From the NCBI RefSeq assembly GCF_006874475.1, contig NZ_VIRM01000041.1:1-64000 (forward strand): 64,000 bases of DNA, in the 5' to 3' direction. The notes beneath the pieces are model-generated. The model was not told the DNA's origin. It saw nothing but the letters and a program-made list of their open reading frames with translations, and made no database searches. This DNA comes from Microbispora hainanensis. GTDB lineage: Bacteria > Actinomycetota > Actinomycetes > Streptosporangiales > Streptosporangiaceae. The translations under genes and the position numbers were made by a program. Shown here in pieces: positions 7,544 through 56,518 of the stretch. Each line of letters begins with the position of its first letter. The stretch's first letter is position 1.

Positions 7544-8329
7544 ATGGACGACGCCATCGCCGACGAGACCGCCCTGCGGGGGCTCACGCCGCGGCTGATC
7601 GGCCCGGAGATCATCGCGGTCTTCGCGGTCTCGCTCGGCGCCAGCGCCCTGCTGTCGCTCATCCGCCTCATCGGCGCACTGACCGCGCCGAAGGACCTGG
7701 GCGACCAGCACGCGGTGCTCGTCGGCTCGCTGGCCCCGGGCCGCCCGTGGCTGGACCTGTCGCTGCACCTCGCGGGGATCGCGGTGAACGTGGCGCCGGT
7801 GGGGCTCGTCGCCTACCTGCTGGCCCGATCGGGCGAGTCCGTGCGCACTATCGGGGCCGACTGGCGCGAGCCGGGCCGCGACACGGTGCGCGGCGCCGCG
7901 CTCGCGGCGGTGATCGGCGGCAGCGGGCTGCTGTTCTACCTGTTCGCCTTCCGGTCCGGGTTCAACCTGAACGTCGTGCCCGACAGCCTGCCGGACTACT
8001 GGTGGCGGATTCCGGTGCTGGTCGCCGAGGCCGCCCAGAACGGCGTGCTGGAGGAGGTGCTGGTCGCCGGTTATCTGCTGCACCGGTTGCGGCAGCGCGG
8101 CTGGTCGCCGTGGCGCGCGGTGGGGGCGTCGGCCGTCCTGCGCGGCTCCTACCACCTCTACCAGGGCTTCGGCGGCTTTCTCGGCAACATCGCGATGGGC
8201 GTGGTCTTCGGCCGGCTCTATCAGCGCTGGGGGCGGACGATGCCGCTGATCATCGCGCACACGCTGATCGACGTGGTCGCCTTCGTCGGGTACGGCGTGC
8301 TGCGCGGCCGTGTTTCCTGGCTGCCCTGA
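7544..8329 (+). CDS. CPBP family intramembrane metalloprotease
   Basis: A 261-residue membrane protein with about six to eight hydrophobic helices. The CPBP (Abi) motifs are recognisable: EEVLVAGYL (the EE pair; the usual Arg after it is replaced by Ala-Gly), SYHLYQGFGGF with the second histidine, and IIAHTLID with the third. Homologues cleave within membranes and are found in CAAX processing or bacteriocin self-immunity; the substrate is unknown here. The hexamer TACCCT at 7532-7537 ends six bases before the ATG and no ribosome site lies between, so the mRNA may be leaderless. Confidence 0.8.
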   Translation: MDDAIADETALRGLTPRLIGPEIIAVFAVSLGASALLSLIRLIGALTAPKDLGDQHAVLVGSLAPGRPWLDLSLHLAGIAVNVAPVGLVAYLLARSGESVRTIGADWREPGRDTVRGAALAAVIGGSGLLFYLFAFRSGFNLNVVPDSLPDYWWRIPVLVAEAAQNGVLEEVLVAGYLLHRLRQRGWSPWRAVGASAVLRGSYHLYQGFGGFLGNIAMGVVFGRLYQRWGRTMPLIIAHTLIDVVAFVGYGVLRGRVSWLP

Positions 8330-8864
8330 TCTCCCGTCTAATCGGGCGGAATGCGTTCTCTCCGGCGCGCCTGATTGATTTGGGCCTGTTACCGGTGCAT
8401 CGTTGACGGGCCGCCGCACGTCTGGATCCCCCCGGGCAAAACCGGCCTGTCCTGGCCGCATTTTCATTCGGGGAATTCGCATGAGGCGTTTATCGATACG
8501 CATTCCATATCCGGCGCGCCATCCGTCGCGCCGTCGCGCCGCCGTCGCCCGCCGGCCCGGGGGTCCCACCCGGCCGCCGGGCCGCGAACGTCCGGCAGGC
8601 CTTCGGTACCGGTGCCCGGTGAGGGGTGGAGCCGCGAGCCCGCGCCGCGCCGCGCCCGTCACCACGACCGCCGTGCCCGTGCGCACGGCCCTGCCCGTAC
8701 GGCCCGCTTCCGGGGACACCGGGTCGCGGGGGGTGGTCTCGCCGAGGCGGGCCACGGGCGACTTATTACCGCCGGTGCCGAGGGCACGGTCCGATCCGTT
8801 ATGAGTGTTGAGCACGCCGGGTGCCCGCAGGGGCGCCCGGCGTCTTCGCGTTCGGACACCGGGC
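8330..8864. other. 535-bp stretch without a convincing gene
   Basis: Only very Arg/Pro-rich frames are open here. The best is an ATG at 8481 with GGGGA in front, running to 8804 (107 residues, starting MRRLSIRIPYPA), but its composition is that of random high-GC DNA and it has no domain. The stretch 8455-8505 is locally AT-richer and may be a promoter. The last part holds the hairpin at 8815-8842. Confidence 0.4.
8815..8842 (-). terminator. Hairpin terminator of the minus-strand gene 8865-9581
   Basis: A 12-bp stem (CGCCGGGTGCCC with GGGCGCCCGGCG, one G-T pair) and a four-base GCAG loop, 22 bases beyond the stop codon of the minus-strand gene. Confidence 0.65.
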
Positions 8865-47473: not shown

Positions 47474-47526
47474 TAGAGTCGTGCGGAAGATCGATGAAAG
47501 AGGGGAAGCGCGCGGATAATCTACGC

Positions 47527-49266
47527 GTGAACCGACCTTCCCGGCGATTATTTCTCCAGCTCGGCGGGCTCGCCGTGCTGACCGCCGCCTGCGTTCCCCG
47601 CCGGAAGGCCGACGCCGGGACCCTCACCCTGCTGCGCCGCCGCTGGCGCGAGGTCACGCTCGGCCACCCCGGGGCGTTCGACCCCGAGCGGGAGCCGTAC
47701 CGGACCCGGCTGGCGCGGCTGGGCGCGCAGGCGCGCCGGCACCGCGACACGATGACGCCCACTGCCCGATCACTCTGGCCCGACCTGCCCTTCCCCTCGC
47801 TCGACGCCACTCCGGCCCGGCTGCGGGCGATGGCCCGCGCGTACGCGCTGCCGGGCACCGGCCTGACCGCGGAGCCGGGCCTCGGCACGGCGGTCGCCGC
47901 GGGCATCGAGCACTACGTGCGGCACGTGTACGCCGCGGACGCCGAGCAGACGGGCAACTGGTGGGACTGGCAGATCGGGACGCCCAGGGCGCTGCTCGAC
48001 GCGGCCGTGCTGGCGGCCGCGCACCTGACGGACACCCAGGTCTCGGCGCTGTGCGCGGCGGTGGACGCCTTCGTCCCGGAAAGCCGCCTGGACGACTACG
48101 AGGGCAACAGCACCGGGGCGAACCGGGTCGATCTGTGCACGGTGACGCTGCTGCGGGCCATCGCCGGGGCCGACCCCGACCGTGCCGCGCTCGCGGTCTC
48201 CGCGCTCTCCCCGGTGTTCCCCTACGTCGCCGAGGGCGACGGCTTCCACCGCGACGGCTGGCACACCGGCTCGGGAATGCTCTACTGGTGGGCGCGCGGG
48301 CACGGCGACCACTACTCCGACGCCTTCTGGCCCACCGTGGACCCCTACCGGCTGCCGGGGACGACGGTCTCCACCCGGAGGCTGCCCGACGGCGCGGGCG
48401 GCGCGTGGGGCGACACCCGCACGCCGGCCGAATGGGCGGGCGGCGCGACCGACGGCACGTACGCCGCCGTGGGCCAGCACCTCTACGGCCTGGAGAGCAC
48501 GCTGGAGGCGTTCACGTCGTGGTTCTTCCTCGACGACGCGGTGGTCTGCCTCGGCGCGGGCATCACCTGCCGCGACGGTGTGCCGGTCGAGACCGTCGTG
48601 GACAACCGCAGGACCGGCGCCCGGCTCACCGCGGCGGCCGGATGGGCGCACCTGGACGGCCACGGCGGTTACGTCGTGCCCGCCGGTCAGCCGTTGCGCA
48701 CGCTGCGCGAGGACCGCACGGCCGCGGGGGTCACCCGGGCCTACACGACGCTGTGGCTCGACCACGGTGTGGACCCTGACGGGGCCGATTACGTCTACCA
48801 CCTCATGCCGGGGGCAGGCCCGGCCGAGACCGCCGCCCGCGCCGCCGATCCCGGCTGGGCCCGGGTGCTCGCCAACACCTCGGCGCAGCAGGGGATCGAG
48901 GTCGCGTCGCTGGGCGTCACCGCGGTCAACTTCTGGACGGGCGGACGGGCCGGGGGACGCGCGGGCGGCCTGACGGCCTCCGATCCGTGCGCGGTCCTCG
49001 TGCGCGACCTCGGCGACGGCACGGCCACGGTGACGGTGGCCGACCCCCGGCGCGCTCTCGACGAGCTGGCGGTGACGTGGGACCGGCCGGTGGCGGCGGT
49101 CACGCACGGGCACCCGCTCCTGGAGCGTGCGGAGACCGGCGCCCGGCTCACGCTCACGTTCGCCGGCCTGGCCGATCACGAGGGCGCCTCCTGCACCATC
49201 ACCGTGCGGGGCTGCGGGAACGCCATGTCATCGAACGCCATGTCATTGAACGCCGTGTCATCATGA
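47527..49266 (+). CDS. Polysaccharide lyase family 8, catalytic core deleted
   Basis: A 579-residue exported protein (families are usually 750-800). Signal: SRRLFLQLGGLAVLTAAC, Tat-like with lipobox. The alpha-toroid has NWWDWQIGTPRALLD and TGANRVDL with the catalytic Asn. At residue about 243 the conserved EGDGF-xx-DG runs straight into GWHTGSGMLYW, which in intact PL8 enzymes lies about 190 residues later, so the catalytic His, Tyr and Arg/Glu region is absent in frame. The beta domain (FWPTVDPYRLPGTTV) is complete. GATAAT lies six bases before GTG 47527, favouring this leaderless start over ATG 47494. Probably a lyase-dead binding protein. Confidence 0.78.
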   Translation: MNRPSRRLFLQLGGLAVLTAACVPRRKADAGTLTLLRRRWREVTLGHPGAFDPEREPYRTRLARLGAQARRHRDTMTPTARSLWPDLPFPSLDATPARLRAMARAYALPGTGLTAEPGLGTAVAAGIEHYVRHVYAADAEQTGNWWDWQIGTPRALLDAAVLAAAHLTDTQVSALCAAVDAFVPESRLDDYEGNSTGANRVDLCTVTLLRAIAGADPDRAALAVSALSPVFPYVAEGDGFHRDGWHTGSGMLYWWARGHGDHYSDAFWPTVDPYRLPGTTVSTRRLPDGAGGAWGDTRTPAEWAGGATDGTYAAVGQHLYGLESTLEAFTSWFFLDDAVVCLGAGITCRDGVPVETVVDNRRTGARLTAAAGWAHLDGHGGYVVPAGQPLRTLREDRTAAGVTRAYTTLWLDHGVDPDGADYVYHLMPGAGPAETAARAADPGWARVLANTSAQQGIEVASLGVTAVNFWTGGRAGGRAGGLTASDPCAVLVRDLGDGTATVTVADPRRALDELAVTWDRPVAAVTHGHPLLERAETGARLTLTFAGLADHEGASCTITVRGCGNAMSSNAMSLNAVSS

Positions 49267-50480: not shown

Positions 50481-51779
50481 ATGTCGCCCGCCTCTCCCGC
50501 GGAGGCGAGCCGCCTCGCGGCCGTACGCCGCTACGCGGCCCTGAAGACCTCCTCCGGCGCCGCGTTCGACCGGGTGGCCGCCCTGGCCGCGCGGATCTTC
50601 CGCGCTCCCTTCGCCACCGTGACGATCGTCGGCGACGACACGGTCCGCGTCATCGCCGCGCATGGGCTGCCACCGCGCCGCGGCCTCGTCGAGAGCCTGT
50701 GCGCCGCGGCCGTACGGCACGGCGGCCCGTACGTGGTCGAGGACGCGTGGCTGCACCCTCACGCGGCCGGAGATCCGGCGGTGCACGGTGAGCCGGGCAT
50801 CCGCTTCTACGCCGCCGCGCCGATCACGACGCCCGACGGTGAGGCGCTGGGCAGCGTCAACGTCATGGACGTCCGCCCCCGTGAGGCCGGCGACGAGGAG
50901 CTCGCCTGCCTGCGCGACCTGGCCGGCCTCGTCATGGACGAGCTGGAGGCGCGGCTGGCCACGCAGCACACGGTCGAGGTCGAAAGGGAGCTGCGCGCGA
51001 GCGCGGAGCGGCTGGCCCGCACCCTCCAGCGCACCCTGCTCCCGCCGGCGCTGCCCCGGGTGCCCGGCCTGCGCGCGGCCGCCGCCTATCACCCCGTCTC
51101 GGCCGACGAGGTGGGCGGCGACTTCTACGACCTGTTCCCCCTGGACGGCGGTCGGTGGGGGTTCTTCCTCGGCGACGTCTGCGGCAAGGGCGCCGACGCC
51201 GCCGCGCTGACCTCACTGGTCCGCTACACCCTGCGCGCCGCGGCCGTCTACGACGCCGACCCGCACGCGGTGCTGGCCAATCTCGACGCGGTCCTGCAAC
51301 AGGAGCACGCGGGCGGCGAGGCCCCGGCGCCCTACTGCACGGCGGTCTTCGGCGTCCTGCAGCCCGACGGCGACGGGTTCGGCGTCACGCTCGCCACCGG
51401 GGGTCATCCCCCGGCGCTGGCGGTGCGGGCGAACGGCGCCGTCGAGCCCATCCACCCCGTCGGGGGGCAGCTGATCGGCATCCTGCGCAATCCCCGCTTC
51501 GCCCAGGTGAGCGCGCGGCTGAACGCCGGTGACGCGCTGCTGCTCTACACCGACGGTCTCACCGAGGCGCGGACGCCGTCCGGCTCGATGCTCGACGAGG
51601 ACGGGCTGACCGCCTATCTCGCCGCCGCCGGGCCCACGAGCGCCGACGATCTCCTGACCGCCGTGCACGACCTGATCACGGAACTGGGCTCGGGGGTGTC
51701 GGACGACACCGCGGTCCTCGCCCTCTCCGTACCACCCGCAACTCGAACGCCGTCCTCCGGGAGTCTCGGTGCAGCATGA
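50481..51779 (+). CDS. GAF-domain PP2C/SpoIIE phosphatase (RsbU-like)
   Basis: A 432-residue cytoplasmic phosphatase that should dephosphorylate a STAS protein. The GAF domain (about residues 20-155) has FATVTIVGDDTVRVIAAHG and ITTPDGEALGSVNVMD; the SpoIIE domain has ADEVGGDFYDLFPLDGG, FFLGDVCGKGADAAAL and LLLYTDGLTEAR with the metal aspartates, and ends SDDTAVLAL. The strong site GGAAGGAG (50434-50441) is followed at ideal distance by an in-frame GTC at 50448 rather than ATG, so the true start may be this unusual codon or ATG 50481. Its end overlaps the STAS gene. Confidence 0.87.
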   Translation: MSPASPAEASRLAAVRRYAALKTSSGAAFDRVAALAARIFRAPFATVTIVGDDTVRVIAAHGLPPRRGLVESLCAAAVRHGGPYVVEDAWLHPHAAGDPAVHGEPGIRFYAAAPITTPDGEALGSVNVMDVRPREAGDEELACLRDLAGLVMDELEARLATQHTVEVERELRASAERLARTLQRTLLPPALPRVPGLRAAAAYHPVSADEVGGDFYDLFPLDGGRWGFFLGDVCGKGADAAALTSLVRYTLRAAAVYDADPHAVLANLDAVLQQEHAGGEAPAPYCTAVFGVLQPDGDGFGVTLATGGHPPALAVRANGAVEPIHPVGGQLIGILRNPRFAQVSARLNAGDALLLYTDGLTEARTPSGSMLDEDGLTAYLAAAGPTSADDLLTAVHDLITELGSGVSDDTAVLALSVPPATRTPSSGSLGAA

Positions 51780-52128
51780 CAACGGTCTGACCGTCAGCCT
51801 CCAGTCGCCCACCTCCGGGCCGCGCCTGCTGGTCGTGGCCGGTGACCTGGACCATCACACCACCCCACGCCTACGGGCGGCCCTGGAGGAGGTCGAGTTC
51901 GGCCCCGGCGCCGACCTGGTCGTCGACCTGTCCGACCTGACCTTCTGCGACTCCACCGGCATCGCCACACTGGTCGCGGCCCACCAGCGCGCCGCCGACG
52001 CGGGCGCCGCCCTGCTCCTGGCCGGTCTGCACTCCGACATCGCCCGGGTCTTCCAGATCATGGGCCTCGACCAGCTGCTGTCCTTGTACGACAGCCCGGA
52101 AGAGGCCGTACGCGCGCTGAGTAAATGA
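51769..52128 (+). CDS. STAS-domain anti-anti-sigma factor
   Basis: A 119-residue STAS protein: DLVVDLSDLTFCDSTGIATLV has the phosphorylatable Ser, then ARVFQIMGLDQLLSLYD. The GTG start overlaps the phosphatase gene by 11 bases with GGGAG in front, so the pair forms a phosphatase/antagonist switch. The kinase partner may be the RsbW-like protein at 24937 or one elsewhere. Confidence 0.85.
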   Translation: MQHDNGLTVSLQSPTSGPRLLVVAGDLDHHTTPRLRAALEEVEFGPGADLVVDLSDLTFCDSTGIATLVAAHQRAADAGAALLLAGLHSDIARVFQIMGLDQLLSLYDSPEEAVRALSK

Positions 52129-52152
52129 GCGCTGAGCAGATGAGCGTGCGGG

Positions 52153-52476
52153 CTACAGGGGCCCGGCGACGGCGACGACGATGTTCTGCTTGATGTCGCA
52201 GTTCCTGGTCCGGCGGCAGAAACCGTCCTCCACGTTGGTCGCCCCACCCGCGGTGCTGGCCTCCGTGTGCTGGTGGCCGCGATTGCGCGTGGGGCTCTGC
52301 AGGTTGACGATGTTGCGGTTGCGCGTGCCGTTCCCGACGGAGGTCGGGCCGTCCCCGTCCCCCCGCCCGGCCCGCGCGTACGCGGGAGCGGTGAGCAGGA
52401 CCTGCGCGGCGGCGGCCGCGACGAGGACGACGGCGAACAGCGGGACACGCCCAGATGCGCCGCGTGAAAGGAGCAT
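52153..52476 (-). CDS. Short secreted Asn/Gly-rich two-cysteine protein, paralogue 1
   Basis: A 107-residue precursor. The signal peptide ends near residue 34 (TAPAYA) and the mature protein is about 73 residues: GRGDGDGP, then SVGNGTRNRNIVNL, SPTRNRG and a C-terminal pair in FCRRTRNCDIKQNI (C-x5-C). The same order of motifs is in the next three genes on this strand, so it belongs to a local family. ATG 52474-52476 has only a weak ribosome site; a frame continues upstream through a low-complexity repeat and is not counted. No homologous family is recognised. Confidence 0.72.
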   Translation of the reverse strand: MLLSRGASGRVPLFAVVLVAAAAAQVLLTAPAYARAGRGDGDGPTSVGNGTRNRNIVNLQSPTRNRGHQHTEASTAGGATNVEDGFCRRTRNCDIKQNIVVAVAGPL

Positions 52477-52484
52477 CGCCACCA

Positions 52485-52545
52485 CCCGTCCGCCCGTCCG
52501 TCCGCTCGCCCGTCTGCTCGCCCGTCCGTCCGCCCGTCTGTCCGC
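52485..52545. repeat. Low-complexity CCGTCCGCCCG tandem tract upstream of paralogue 1
   Basis: Repeats of CCGTCCG/CTCGCCCGT blocks, mainly four- to sixteen-base periods, in the leader region. Confidence 0.7.
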
Positions 52546-52645
52546 ACGGAATCTCGTCACACCGTAGCGTCCGGCCCGGTCCGGCCGGCGTCTTCGCGGG
52601 TCCGTGTCCCGCCATGTTCTCGGCTGATCAGCGTCCGATGATCCG

Positions 52646-53086
52646 TCAGCGTCCGATGATCACCGTGCCGCTCGTCCTGGGGGAGCTCTGCATGTGGCCT
52701 CGCATGTTCTGGGCGCCCTTGCAGCCGGGCCGGCGCCTGCAGCTGGACGCCTGCGTGTTCACCGACGCGTCCACGCCGGAGATGACCTGCTGAGCGCCCG
52801 TCGCGTTCCGCGCGCTGCCGACGAGCAGGGAGTTCAGGTTGTTCTGGCCGTTGTTGAACACGTACCTCGAATTGGCGCCGTTCCCGTCGCCACCGCCCCG
52901 TCCCCGGATGGCCGCCGCGTCGGCGGGGGAGAGCAGCGGGGAGAGCGCGACGCCGGCGCCGGCGACCGCGAGCGCGGTCAGCGCCAGCAGCCGCGCCGCC
53001 GGGCCGGCGAGCGCGTGCCGCCTCGTGTCGTGAGGCCTGAGATGAGGCCTGAGATAAGCCCTGCGACGAGCCCTGTGAGGAGCCAT
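52646..53086 (-). CDS. Short secreted Asn/Gly-rich two-cysteine protein, paralogue 2
   Basis: A 146-residue precursor with a long basic N-region (RAYLRPHLRPH, from a 12-bp repeat) and hydrophobic core LLALTALAVAGAGVALSPLL, cleaved near residue 60. The mature part has GGGDGNGANSRYVFNNG, NLNSLLVGSARNATGAQQ, SGVDAS and CRRRPGCKGAQNM (C-x5-C). CAGGAGA precedes ATG 53084-53086. The leader on this side contains the inverted repeat at 53119-53142. Confidence 0.75.
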   Translation of the reverse strand: MAPHRARRRAYLRPHLRPHDTRRHALAGPAARLLALTALAVAGAGVALSPLLSPADAAAIRGRGGGDGNGANSRYVFNNGQNNLNSLLVGSARNATGAQQVISGVDASVNTQASSCRRRPGCKGAQNMRGHMQSSPRTSGTVIIGR

Positions 53087-53118
53087 GTTCTCCTGTGCCT
53101 TCCCCGGTGACCGTCGAA

Positions 53119-53142
53119 CAGATCCGTCCGTGTGCGGATCTG
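53119..53142. promoter_or_regulatory. Inverted repeat in the leader of paralogue 2
   Basis: CAGATCCG-TCCGTGTG-CGGATCTG, perfect 8-bp arms, 33-56 bases upstream of the paralogue-2 ATG. Could be an operator or a leader hairpin. Confidence 0.4.
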
Positions 53143-53222
53143 CCGGGCATCTACCCCGCAAGCACGCGCCCGTCGCGGTCGCTGAAGGAGGATTAGGACC
53201 TCCCAACGGAAAGATCTTCCGA

Positions 53223-53552
53223 CTAGCCCTCCTGGAGCGACCCCCGCATTCGCTGGGTCAGCTTGCAGAGGCGCGCCCCTCGGCGGCAGATGATGCTCTG
53301 CCCGTTCGCCACGCCGCCGACGCCGATCGTCTTCTGCTGGATGCCGGACCCGTTCCGCGCGCTGCCCACCGTCAGCTGGCTGACGTTGCGGATCCCGTTG
53401 CCGACGCGGACGCCGGCGGTGTTGCCGTTGCGGTCGCCGCTCCCAGCCGTCTGGCCGGCCGCGGCGTGAGCGACCGTCGCATGCGCGGCGAGCGCCGCCG
53501 TCATCACCGCTGTGGCCGTCGTGGCCGCCACCAGGGCGAGACCGCCGCGCAT
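53223..53552 (-). CDS. Short secreted Asn/Gly-rich two-cysteine protein, paralogue 3
   Basis: A 109-residue precursor: signal peptide from MRGGLALVAATTATAVMTAAL cleaved near residue 31 (VAHA), mature part GSGDRNGNTAGVRVGNGIRN, then QLTVGSARNGSGIQQ, VGGVANGQ and ICRRGARLCKLTQRM (C-x6-C). ATG 53550-53552 follows the stop of paralogue 4 by seven bases, so these two share one mRNA. Confidence 0.76.
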   Translation of the reverse strand: MRGGLALVAATTATAVMTAALAAHATVAHAAAGQTAGSGDRNGNTAGVRVGNGIRNVSQLTVGSARNGSGIQQKTIGVGGVANGQSIICRRGARLCKLTQRMRGSLQEG

Positions 53553-53559
53553 CAGCGGC

Positions 53560-53916
53560 TCACCGCCCGCGCTCGGACTCGTCGTCCGCCGGGCCGCGGG
53601 AGCCGATGTGCTGCGACAGCGTGCAGAACCGGCCGCGCGGCCGGCACAGGCCGCCCTGCACGCTGCTGACCCCGCCCACGCCCGACGAGAACTGGTGGAG
53701 GGCGCCACGCAGGCGGGTGCTGCCGATCGTCACCAGGTTGCGGTTGTCCGAGCCGTTGCCCACGCGTACGGCCGAGCGGTTCCCGTTGCCGTCGCCGCCG
53801 GAGGCGTACGCGTCCATCGGCGCAACCAGAGCAAGTGCCAGTGCAAGGGCCAGGGCCGGCGCGGGCCGTCGGCGAAGGGCGCCGGGGGATCGCGTGAGGG
53901 TGTGGATGATCGGCAT
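53560..53916 (-). CDS. Short secreted Asn/Gly-rich two-cysteine protein, paralogue 4
   Basis: A 118-residue precursor: signal peptide with an Ala-Leu repeat (PALALALALALVAPMDAYA) cleaved near residue 39, mature part GGDGNGNRSAVRVGNG, DNRNLVTIGSTRLRGALHQ, SGVGGVSS and LCRPRGRFCTLSQHI (C-x6-C). GTAGGAGGC stands at good distance before ATG 53914-53916. It is the first gene of the cluster; its promoter should lie between 53917 and the GH43 terminator at 54006-54038. Confidence 0.77.
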   Translation of the reverse strand: MPIIHTLTRSPGALRRRPAPALALALALALVAPMDAYASGGDGNGNRSAVRVGNGSDNRNLVTIGSTRLRGALHQFSSGVGGVSSVQGGLCRPRGRFCTLSQHIGSRGPADDESERGR

Positions 53917-54005
53917 CGACGTGCCTCCTACCCCGCTCGCGGGCCCGCGTCCCGGCACCGGCGGAAATCGCAGCGGGTCATTCCCCGGGCATTGAGCGGA
54001 CATGG

Positions 54006-54038
54006 ACCGGCCGCCCCTCGGGTGAAGGTGCGGCCGGT
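54006..54038 (-). terminator. Hairpin after GH43 gene
   Basis: ACCGGCCGC and GCGGCCGGT pair perfectly around a 15-base loop, seven bases past the GH43 stop on the minus strand. Confidence 0.55.
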
Positions 54039-54044
54039 CGCCGG

Positions 54045-56333
54045 TTATCGGCTGGTCACCTCGTAGGTCCGCAGGTAGTCGAACGTCGCGGTGGCGCCCG
54101 CCGCGTTCATCGAGATCAGGCCGATCCTCACCGGCCCGGTGCGCGGGAGCGACCAGCTGCCGCCCCAGATCCAGTGGGCGCCGTCGGTGCTCGACGCCAT
54201 CCGGACGTCGTGCTCGCCGTTCTCCTGGTCGTGGTGGTAGAGCAGCCGCAGCCAGGTGGTCTCCGCGGCCGGGCCGCCGAACATGGGCGCGTTGGCGACC
54301 GCGGTGGGCGGGGTGGTGCCGGGGCGCGGGCCCTCTTTGCCGAACTCGGTCTGGTGCAGCACCGCGCCGTTGCCCTGGTTGAGGGGCAGGACGGTGTGCG
54401 TCAGCTTCAGCCACCGGTCGTCGTTCTCGTACAGCAGCAGACCGGCCTGCTGGTTGCCCTTCGTGCCGTCGAAGGTGAGCTTCGTCTCGACGGCGAAGTC
54501 GCCCTGCGGCGCGTCGCGGAGCAGGATCGACGCGGTGTTGTTGCCCTGGAACAGCTCGGCGTTCTGGGTCGGCCAGACCAGGGAGCCGTTCGACAGGGTG
54601 GCCGACGGGTTGCGGACCTTCGTCCAGCCGGTGGGCGAGCCGGTGCCGTCGAACTCGTCGGAGTACGCCGGGAGTTGCCTGCCGAGGACGGGATCGGGCA
54701 CCCGCTCGGTCACCGGCCGGTAGAGCGGCGCGGCGCCCACGTTGTCGGCGTCGGCCGCGCCGCGGGTGGTCACGCCGATGGCGCCGGACGTGGGGGCGCC
54801 CTCGGGCAGCGTCAGGGAGACGCTCGCCACCGGGTCGCCGAGCCGGTCGGCCGACACCGACACGGTCAGGGCGTTCCCACGCCGCTCGGCGGCGACGTTG
54901 TGCCAGGAGCCGTAGTCGAACGAGGACGGCAACGGGCCGCTCGCCGTCGTCGTCCTGCCGCGCGCCTTGGCCGTGACGACGAGCTCGCCGCGCTCGCGGT
55001 CGAGCCACGCGGTGATGTCCTTCGCGCCGTTCTCGCGGGTGACGACGAGCCCGGCGGCGCTGCCGCCCTCGCGCAGCCGCAGGTCGGCCTCCACGCGGAC
55101 GTCGCCCCGGACCCGGTCGTCGCTGAGCTCGCTGGTCGAGCCCTTGCCGGTGAGGTGGCCGAGTGAGTCGGGGTCGGAGGCCGGCTTCCACGGCCCGGTC
55201 CACCCGGCCGTGCCCTCGTTGAACGTGCCGCCCACGGTCCAGGTGGTGACCGGCGCGGGCTGCGCCCCGGTGGACGGCCCGGCCCCGGCCCGTACGACCG
55301 GCCAGCCGTCGATCCAGTCGAGCCGGTCGATCATGAGGGGACGCCGGCTCAGGTTGCTGATCGTCGTGCCCCAGGTCGTCGTGACCGGCCCGAACTCGGG
55401 GGCCGACGAGGCGATCGCGTGATAGACGAGCCAGTCCTGTCCGCTGAGGTCGGTCTGGACGGCGTTGTGGCCGGGGCCGGCCCAGCCGTTGCCGCCGGCC
55501 GCGAGGACGATGCCGTCCTTGCTGGTCAGGTCCATCAGGTCGACGCCGGTCGGGGTGGTGAACGGCCCGAGCGGGCTGTCGGCGCGGCCGGCCTTGACCG
55601 TGTAGCCGCTGAACGCGCCGTCGCAGCACCCGGCGTCGGAGTAGAACAGGTAGTACCTGTCGTCGTGCCGGACGACGAAGGCGCCCTCCATGCGGCGTCC
55701 GCGGGCGATCTGCGTGACCGGGCCGGTGACCGCGGTCGCCTCGGTGTTCATCCTCGCGCCGCAGATCGTGTCGTAGCTGCCCCAGTAGAGGTAGCTGTCG
55801 CCGTTGACGTCGGTGAACATGGCCTGGTCGATGTTGCCCGTCGGGCAGCCGCTGCCGCCAGCGGGGACGATCATGCCGTGGTCGGTCCAGGGCCCGGTCG
55901 GGTGCGGGCCGGTCGCGAGCCCGACTCCGCCCGTGGAGAGCGCGTACGTCAGGTGGTAGGCGCCGTTCACATAGCGGATGTCCGGCGCCCAGGGACGCGT
56001 GCCGTTCGGCCACCACGCGGGGTGGTCGGCCGCGGTGTAGACGTCTCCCGCGTACGTCCAGTGGACCATGTCGGGGGACGTGAGCATCGGCAGGATGTGC
56101 TCGGTCTTCCCGTCGATGGGGTTCGTGGTGCCGTAGGCGTACCAGAGGCCGTCTTTGCCGCGGATCATCGTGGGGTCGGGGAAGGTCTGCACCGTCCCGG
56201 CGCTCACGGGGTTGGTGTAGGCCGGGTCCGGCACCGCCTGCACGGGCGACGTCTGTACGGGTGCTGCCTGGGCGGGGGGCGTCACGGCCACGGAGGACGC
56301 GAGGAGTAAGGCTCCGATCACCAGTTGTCTCAC
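54045..56333 (-). CDS. Secreted glycoside hydrolase family 43 (arabinanase-like) with C-terminal beta-sandwich domains
   Basis: A 762-residue exported enzyme: signal peptide ending AQAAPV (about residue 23), then a five-bladed propeller with FPDPTMIRGKDGLWYAYGT (base Asp), RPWAPDIRYVNGAYHLTYA and RRMEGAFVVRHDDRYYLFYS (acid Glu), WAGPGHNAVQTD and WLVYHA. After residue about 370 come one or two concanavalin-like domains, the last ending with TFDYLRTYEV, as in proteins measuring 'true' fold-change; they may bind sugar. TACCGT lies seven bases before GTG 56331-56333, so the mRNA is probably leaderless. Arabinan or arabinoxylan is the likely substrate. Confidence 0.86.
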   Translation of the reverse strand: MRQLVIGALLLASSVAVTPPAQAAPVQTSPVQAVPDPAYTNPVSAGTVQTFPDPTMIRGKDGLWYAYGTTNPIDGKTEHILPMLTSPDMVHWTYAGDVYTAADHPAWWPNGTRPWAPDIRYVNGAYHLTYALSTGGVGLATGPHPTGPWTDHGMIVPAGGSGCPTGNIDQAMFTDVNGDSYLYWGSYDTICGARMNTEATAVTGPVTQIARGRRMEGAFVVRHDDRYYLFYSDAGCCDGAFSGYTVKAGRADSPLGPFTTPTGVDLMDLTSKDGIVLAAGGNGWAGPGHNAVQTDLSGQDWLVYHAIASSAPEFGPVTTTWGTTISNLSRRPLMIDRLDWIDGWPVVRAGAGPSTGAQPAPVTTWTVGGTFNEGTAGWTGPWKPASDPDSLGHLTGKGSTSELSDDRVRGDVRVEADLRLREGGSAAGLVVTRENGAKDITAWLDRERGELVVTAKARGRTTTASGPLPSSFDYGSWHNVAAERRGNALTVSVSADRLGDPVASVSLTLPEGAPTSGAIGVTTRGAADADNVGAAPLYRPVTERVPDPVLGRQLPAYSDEFDGTGSPTGWTKVRNPSATLSNGSLVWPTQNAELFQGNNTASILLRDAPQGDFAVETKLTFDGTKGNQQAGLLLYENDDRWLKLTHTVLPLNQGNGAVLHQTEFGKEGPRPGTTPPTAVANAPMFGGPAAETTWLRLLYHHDQENGEHDVRMASSTDGAHWIWGGSWSLPRTGPVRIGLISMNAAGATATFDYLRTYEVTSR

Positions 56334-56518
56334 GGCGAGCACGGTAGACAGGCCAAATTTTTCCGTCGAGACGCCGTCAGAATCCCGTGCCCCACCGGCC
56401 TCAGGAGCGTCAAGCGGGTGCGGCAGGATGCCTGGGTGCGTGTCGGGGAGGTGTCCGCGCTGGTCAGAGGGTTTCGTCAGGCTCCCGGGCAGATTTACCG
56501 ATTCTTTTTGTCGGATGG

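Follow-up and report, generated by a model that had tools for sequence, protein, structure and literature searches.

Four consecutive minus-strand genes of Microbispora hainanensis encode members of a real family of secreted two-cysteine proteins that is described in none of the libraries searched here, and many genes of this family, including copies dispersed over the genome, are preceded by a common promoter-like element. The genes lie in the window, i.e., the whole 64,000-nucleotide stretch that was analysed (contig NZ_VIRM01000041.1, positions 1 to 64,000; GC content 71.6%). Gene 1 (position A; 53560..53916, 118 codons), gene 2 (position B; 53223..53552, 109 codons), gene 3 (position C; 52646..53086, 146 codons) and gene 4 (position D; 52153..52476, 107 codons) are all on the minus strand, with the coordinates and lengths that a sequence-only reading of the window had claimed and that the list of open reading frames (ORFs) bears out. 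ATG is the first codon of all four frames as given, and the GC content at the third codon position is 0.89–0.94. The intergenic gaps are 7, 136 and 169 nt, gene 2 starting 7 nt downstream of gene 1.

The mature parts of the four proteins are homologous and share a common ancestry. All six pairwise alignments scored above every one of 1000 shuffles (z 6.1–17.3), and profiles built from any three genes, when searched against the window's ORFs of at least 40 residues, recovered the fourth with E-values of 1.9e-9 to 6.4e-17, so the paralogy proposed by the sequence-only reading is upheld. Its claim of secretion is likewise supported by a basic start, a hydrophobic stretch and an AxA motif in the four proteins, judged by eye rather than with a predictor. 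The order of motifs that it had described was mostly right, but it is not uniform: C-R-[RP]-x3-4-C followed by Q-x-[MI] is present in all four genes, whereas VxNGx2NxN is exact only in genes 1 and 4, GSxRNx2GxQQ only in genes 2 and 3, and GVxG only in genes 1 and 2. The Asn content of the four mature parts is 6–11%, compared to 0.5–3.5% in five neighbouring proteins. Over the family as a whole the core pattern is GNGxxNxN - V - SPT - GxQQ - N-x-Q - C x5-6 C - x-I-x-Q.

A closely spaced cysteine pair was found in 162 of 163 distinct family cores. Among these 162 cores, the two cysteines were separated by 5 or 6 residues in 161, exactly two cysteines were present in 157, and the net charge of the cysteine loop averaged +2.5 and was at least +1 in 98%. 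Such spacing, together with exactly two cysteines in nearly all of these cores, suits an internal disulfide loop, which is the simplest reading of the pair; assembly through disulfides, which the sequence-only reading had suggested, is on the same counts unlikely to be the main principle. Two AlphaFold models showed beta-strands at low confidence (mean pLDDT 46.7 and 51.9; pTM 0.22 and 0.27), too low to base a fold search on, and neither support nor exclude assembly. Strand-like alternation of hydropathy or conservation in the family cores was not significant at lags 1–3 (at lag 2, p 0.06 for conservation and 0.42 for hydropathy), and conservation at lag 4 gave p 0.03. Given the low-confidence models and the lack of a significant strand pattern, amyloid assembly of the two-cysteine proteins is unsupported. 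Two variants of the architecture should also be mentioned. A long member in the same genome (C46; L057, 5847–6485), which by eye lies beside a branched-chain aminotransferase gene, carries a Pro/Thr/Val-rich tail and an end with two further cysteines, and three loci (L060, L182, and L183) form a divergent subfamily, only weakly detected by the family profile, with an NVxAPAxNS..F.GxQQVSSVSVFT-like stretch before the cysteine pair.

Consistent with the earlier statement that the proteins belong to no recognised family, the four proteins matched no family in Pfam (best E 0.047), NCBIfam (best E 0.054), PHROGs (best E 0.16) or PDB sequences (best E 1.5). Individual scans of 51 family cores came nowhere near a cut-off (best E 0.015 for Pfam and 0.012 for NCBIfam), and the joint profile of these cores had no match in the PDB sequence set at E up to 10. 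For seven full-length relatives, among them six long forms, all library matches were far below the curated cut-offs, and the best of them cover the Pro-rich tail of one relative. The gene 4 protein had no match in a plasmid collection, the gene 2 protein none in a phage collection, and an Rfam scan of the window gave no match. A literature search, in which the sources were available in part, found no published account of the two-cysteine family, which does not prove that none exists.

The known proteins that the family most resembles were compared in turn. Chaplins are two-cysteine, Asn/Gly-containing proteins. Like the family, chaplins (PF03777) are small secreted proteins of sporulating actinomycetes that, in the part of the source available, are described as occurring in long and short forms (PMC4255298); unlike them, the family has its cysteines 5–6 residues apart near the C-terminus. 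Neither the four proteins (E up to 10) nor the 51 cores (E up to 1) matched PF03777, and hhalign gave a probability of 0.14% against 57 chaplin stretches. Curlin repeats (PF07012) share with the family, by eye, a spaced Asn/Gln/Gly pattern; like PF03777, they were matched by none of the four proteins and none of the 51 cores at these thresholds. The distinctness from chaplins and curlins that the sequence-only reading had noted stands. Chaplin-domain matches occur in all 15 Microbispora genomes as ORFs separate from the family. Several such matches are present in each genome, mostly within a single frame of ~690–760 codons; in the window's own genome this is a 692-codon open frame with six tandem chaplin-domain matches (L132; C223:28302–29711). 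Streptomyces chaplins carry one or two domains, unlike this giant multi-chaplin protein of Microbispora.

Rodlins (NF041022) are, like the family, small, secreted and by eye rich in Asn, Gln and Gly; RdlA and RdlB, in the portion of the report available, have 131 and 133 residues with the signal peptide, and these two similar proteins are both required for the rodlet layer (PMC5314377). Homology to them was rejected by every comparison. Of the four proteins only that of gene 2 matched NF041022, with 10.1 bits (E 0.61) and mostly over the signal peptide, and one long-form relative reached 13.5 bits (E 0.052), against a cut-off of 75 bits. The hhalign probability with 25 trimmed rodlins was 0.34%, a value that replaces the 0.09% obtained with the untrimmed set. 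In reciprocal profile searches no score beat the best shuffle either way: the best family core scored 9.0 bits with the rodlin profile, compared to 11.0 for the best of tenfold more shuffles, and the middling scores of the family cores were slightly above those of the shuffles. No rodlins were detected in the 15 Microbispora genomes with the model that matches 31 of 394 genomes of the class. By any of the tests run, the family is thus not homologous to chaplins or rodlins.

A profile of 51 cores, with a limited number of candidates scored per genome, located 13 family places in the genome of the window and detected the family in 51 of 345 genomes of the order, from 12 of 70 genera. Within the order, every match fell in a genome of the window's own family group; the number of family places per genome ranges from 4 to 16 in 15 Microbispora genomes. 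A class-wide sample of 394 genomes, likewise with limited candidates per genome, gave matches in 7 (E up to 0.01): six are of the same genus, the window's own genome included, and the seventh match is weak (E 0.0046) and was taken as chance. A scan of named records with a single peptide pattern, which matched 37 stretches of which 19 were confirmed, identified relatives in Sphaerisporangium, Microtetraspora, Actinoallomurus and one Actinomadura, in addition to M. oryzae, M. corallina, M. rosea, M. bryophytorum, M. catharanthi, M. siamensis and M. amethystogenes. Members with an apparent internal TGA turned out to be ordinary genes whose stop lies just after the last motif. The family has so far been found only in Streptosporangiaceae and near relatives, and the four-gene cluster is its largest local group in its own genome.

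The A-B-C-D gene order is conserved across most of Microbispora. Position A was recovered in 12 of the 15 genomes and positions B, C and D in 13 each; the cluster is absent from two genomes, in one the set is divided between two contig ends and another is cut by a contig end. In a quick tree (152 rows, 69 columns), which includes duplicate records of some genomes and leaves many forks unresolved, A, B, C and D form clades with SH-aLRT values of 91, 97, 100 and 99, respectively. A–C fall together, with three or four singletons, in a single clade (95); D nests inside a clade of long, tailed forms (99). The four genes are separate old orthologue groups and not recent duplicates. Simple local duplication, as the sequence-only reading had it, thus gives way to a set of old orthologue groups within a dispersed family, with gene 4 in another subfamily. 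The median dN/dS within the orthologue groups is 0.46–0.52, which indicates constraint at the protein level. Among 10 named loci outside Microbispora, eight have a short gene with a long one behind it, and in two of the eight a third gene follows; of the other two loci, one has a long gene plus the third and one a long gene alone. In Microbispora, to judge from this arrangement, the short member has probably multiplied to three and the long one become shorter.

The promoter-like element extends over ~100 nt and has the form GGTAATCATC ... GCGGGAC-N15-GGGTAT. In the aligned sites, GCGGGAC is followed after 15 nt by GGGTAT and then by a GACGTC-like stretch, and a multi-genus set of sites adds AAAGAGCCGGTAATCATC ~50 nt further upstream. 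A k-mer search of the upstream regions pointed to GGGTA. Counted within 350 nt before the core, GGGTA was present in 60 of 88 non-redundant family windows, compared to 18 of 166 control windows, taken from other genes of these loci (Fisher p 7e-21; the value is not fully independent, since the larger set tested overlapped the subset on which the enrichment was first noticed). The corresponding counts were 32/88 and 3/166 for GGGTAT and 44/88 and 12/166 for GGGTA[TC], and the antisense strand of the family windows had GGGTA in 7/88. The 28 family windows lacking GGGTA include some later genes of tandem sets. At five loci (L051, L054, L109, L120, and L125) a second, GGGTAA-containing block lies ~53 nt above the GGGTAT box upstream of family genes; it is nearly palindromic in some loci and is possibly an activator site.

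A cleaner test than this p-value is a search of whole genomes with a sequence-only model, R1, built from 16 sites and run over eight genomes with at most 150 candidates scored per genome. The sites of R1 were chosen for having GGGTA, and conservation at the GGGTA columns is therefore partly by construction. R1 gave 30 matches up to E 0.05. Of the 19 strongest (E up to 0.0026), 18 are located 173–309 nt ahead of the core of a family gene and on its strand; eight of them are training sites and 10 are not. The remaining match (L224) has no family frame nearby, overlaps other open frames and was taken as chance, and the weaker 11 of the 30 matches (E up to 0.05) all lie away from family genes. The window's own genome has one significant match (E 2e-6), at a non-training site, which precedes a family gene, and the other 11 matches (E above 0.1) precede none; at the other family loci of this genome, R1 reached E 0.001 or weaker in small searches. 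The shared element suggests that the dispersed copies of the family are co-regulated.

Within 51700–54600, the best R1 match (E 0.001 for 2901 bases) is the element before gene 1 (53924..53967, minus strand), in which GGGAC is followed after 15 nt by GGGTA at 53929–53933; this GGGTA is kept in 12 aligned sequences of the genus. The second best (E 0.0037) is the element before gene 3 (53152..53180, minus strand), with GGGTA at 53152–53156, and a third match (E 0.014) lies elsewhere. Both elements are non-training sites, and both of the window's −10 boxes read GGGTAG. Genes 2 and 4 have no upstream GGGTA of their own. From the matches before genes 1 and 3, genes 1–2 and 3–4 are probably two transcription units. 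A sigma-70 and terminator scan of 51700–54200 found neither. The sigma-BldN box consists of CGTAAC and CGTTGA. A box of this kind upstream of the family genes was rejected, with a mean best score of 8.14 compared to 8.10 in shuffles. GGGTA was absent from ten chaplin loci (204–400 nt read, some loci shortened at the 5' side), and R1 had no match below E 0.1 at ten chaplin loci or at 11 of 25 rodlin loci; the chaplin loci thus give no support for co-regulation with the chaplin sheath.

The element most resembles SigB-class promoters, for which the Streptomyces consensus, in the portions of the two reports available, is GNNTN-N14-16-GGGTAY (PMC5402319; PMC8346170). Many family sites, though not the window's own two with their GGGTAG, have the −10 box GGGTAY, and the spacing is 15. 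Unlike this consensus, however, the family −35 is GGGAC instead of GNNT or GTTT, so that the first G and the spacing fit and the T does not, and the GGTAATCATC block ~50 nt upstream of the GGGTAT box is an extra conserved feature. SpoIIE-type phosphatases and STAS proteins are described in the available part of one report as releasing SigB-class factors by partner switching (PMC8346170), and possible regulators of both types adjoin the cluster: a convergent STAS-domain protein of the anti-sigma antagonist type (PF01740; 51769..52128, plus strand) and a GAF-SpoIIE phosphatase of the partner-switch type (PF07228; 50481..51779, plus strand). Counting the window, STAS is a neighbour at 12 of 13 clusters and SpoIIE at 11 of 13. 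The two Microbispora genomes without the cluster gave no SpoIIE orthologue at E up to 1e-40. SpoIIE is absent from the cluster of G011, the window's closest relative there, with no match between STAS and Rsm22 (L037, ~8250–8515). In the gene neighbourhood of 28 other family loci, which had been proposed as a check, no neighbour besides family genes recurs in more than five. A link between SpoIIE/STAS and regulation of the family is suggestive only and may reflect shared ancestry. In one genome of another genus (G036, contig C24; L191 and L225), the best SpoIIE homologue (57% identity; C24:115518) lies on the same contig as an R1 match that precedes a family gene (C24:129593), ~13 kb away.

The same −10 box and spacing, the SpoIIE/STAS neighbours and the basic cysteine loop would also be expected of stress-induced envelope or desiccation proteins, i.e., monomeric, basic, secreted proteins of a SigB-class response that bind wall polymers without forming a coat. 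We regard this explanation as unlikely, though it is the strongest of the rivals: thirteen places with diverged paralogues, several of them tandem sets of short and long members, resemble the parts of an assembly and not a single protectant, and the element was found almost only before the two-cysteine family (18 of the best 19 matches in eight genomes), with no such presence at other stress genes. Diversifying peptides for antagonism or signalling would be small and secreted, with a likely disulfide and many paralogues, as seen here, and a median dN/dS of 0.46–0.52 is fairly high. That value is, however, below 1, most of the genus retains one-to-one orthologues in the same order, any given neighbour is shared by at most five of 28 family loci and no family match was obtained, which together make this explanation improbable. 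More improbable still are accessory proteins of polysaccharide breakdown. A GH43 glycosidase gene (54048..56366, minus strand) adjoins the cluster upstream, and a polysaccharide lyase family 8 (PL8) gene (47494–49266), near an Rsm22-like methyltransferase gene, is ~3 kb away in the window, but GH43 is not a constant companion, being found at only 7 of 13 clusters, and at 28 other family loci no neighbour of any kind recurs in more than five. That the genes are chance open frames, as short ORFs in such GC-rich DNA might be, is refuted by genus-wide orthologues with profile E-values from 1e-40, dN/dS below 1 and the shared promoter-like element.

A co-regulated, multi-part family of extracellular structural proteins remains our preferred reading, and a role in a surface coat is our best guess, held tentatively and at somewhat less than an even chance; the surface role is strengthened by the shared promoter-like element. 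A single regulator specific to a stage or to stress would activate the dispersed copies jointly; it may be a SigB-class sigma factor, given the fit of the −10 box GGGTAY and of the spacing. After export via Sec, the two-cysteine proteins would be retained at the anionic wall or matrix by their cysteine-closed basic loop, and several paralogues could pack side by side through their Asn/Gln/Gly-rich part as a coat of hyphae or spores, which would fill the niche of chaplins and rodlins with unrelated proteins. More speculatively, and with correspondingly less confidence, the family may represent a third class of actinobacterial sheath proteins, unrelated to chaplins and rodlins, in which dispersed short and long paralogues under one dedicated promoter element surround hyphae or spores with a heteromeric outer layer, in a lineage without detected rodlins.

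Microbispora forms spores, and detailed knowledge of the surface proteins of aerial growth comes mainly from Streptomyces. If the two-cysteine proteins do coat spores or hyphae, they would help to explain how the surface layer is built in other sporulating actinomycetes, and the shared element would be a direct handle on the regulator. Even without a surface role, a family that has its own promoter-like element and matches nothing in Pfam or NCBIfam represents a testable gap in actinomycete biology.
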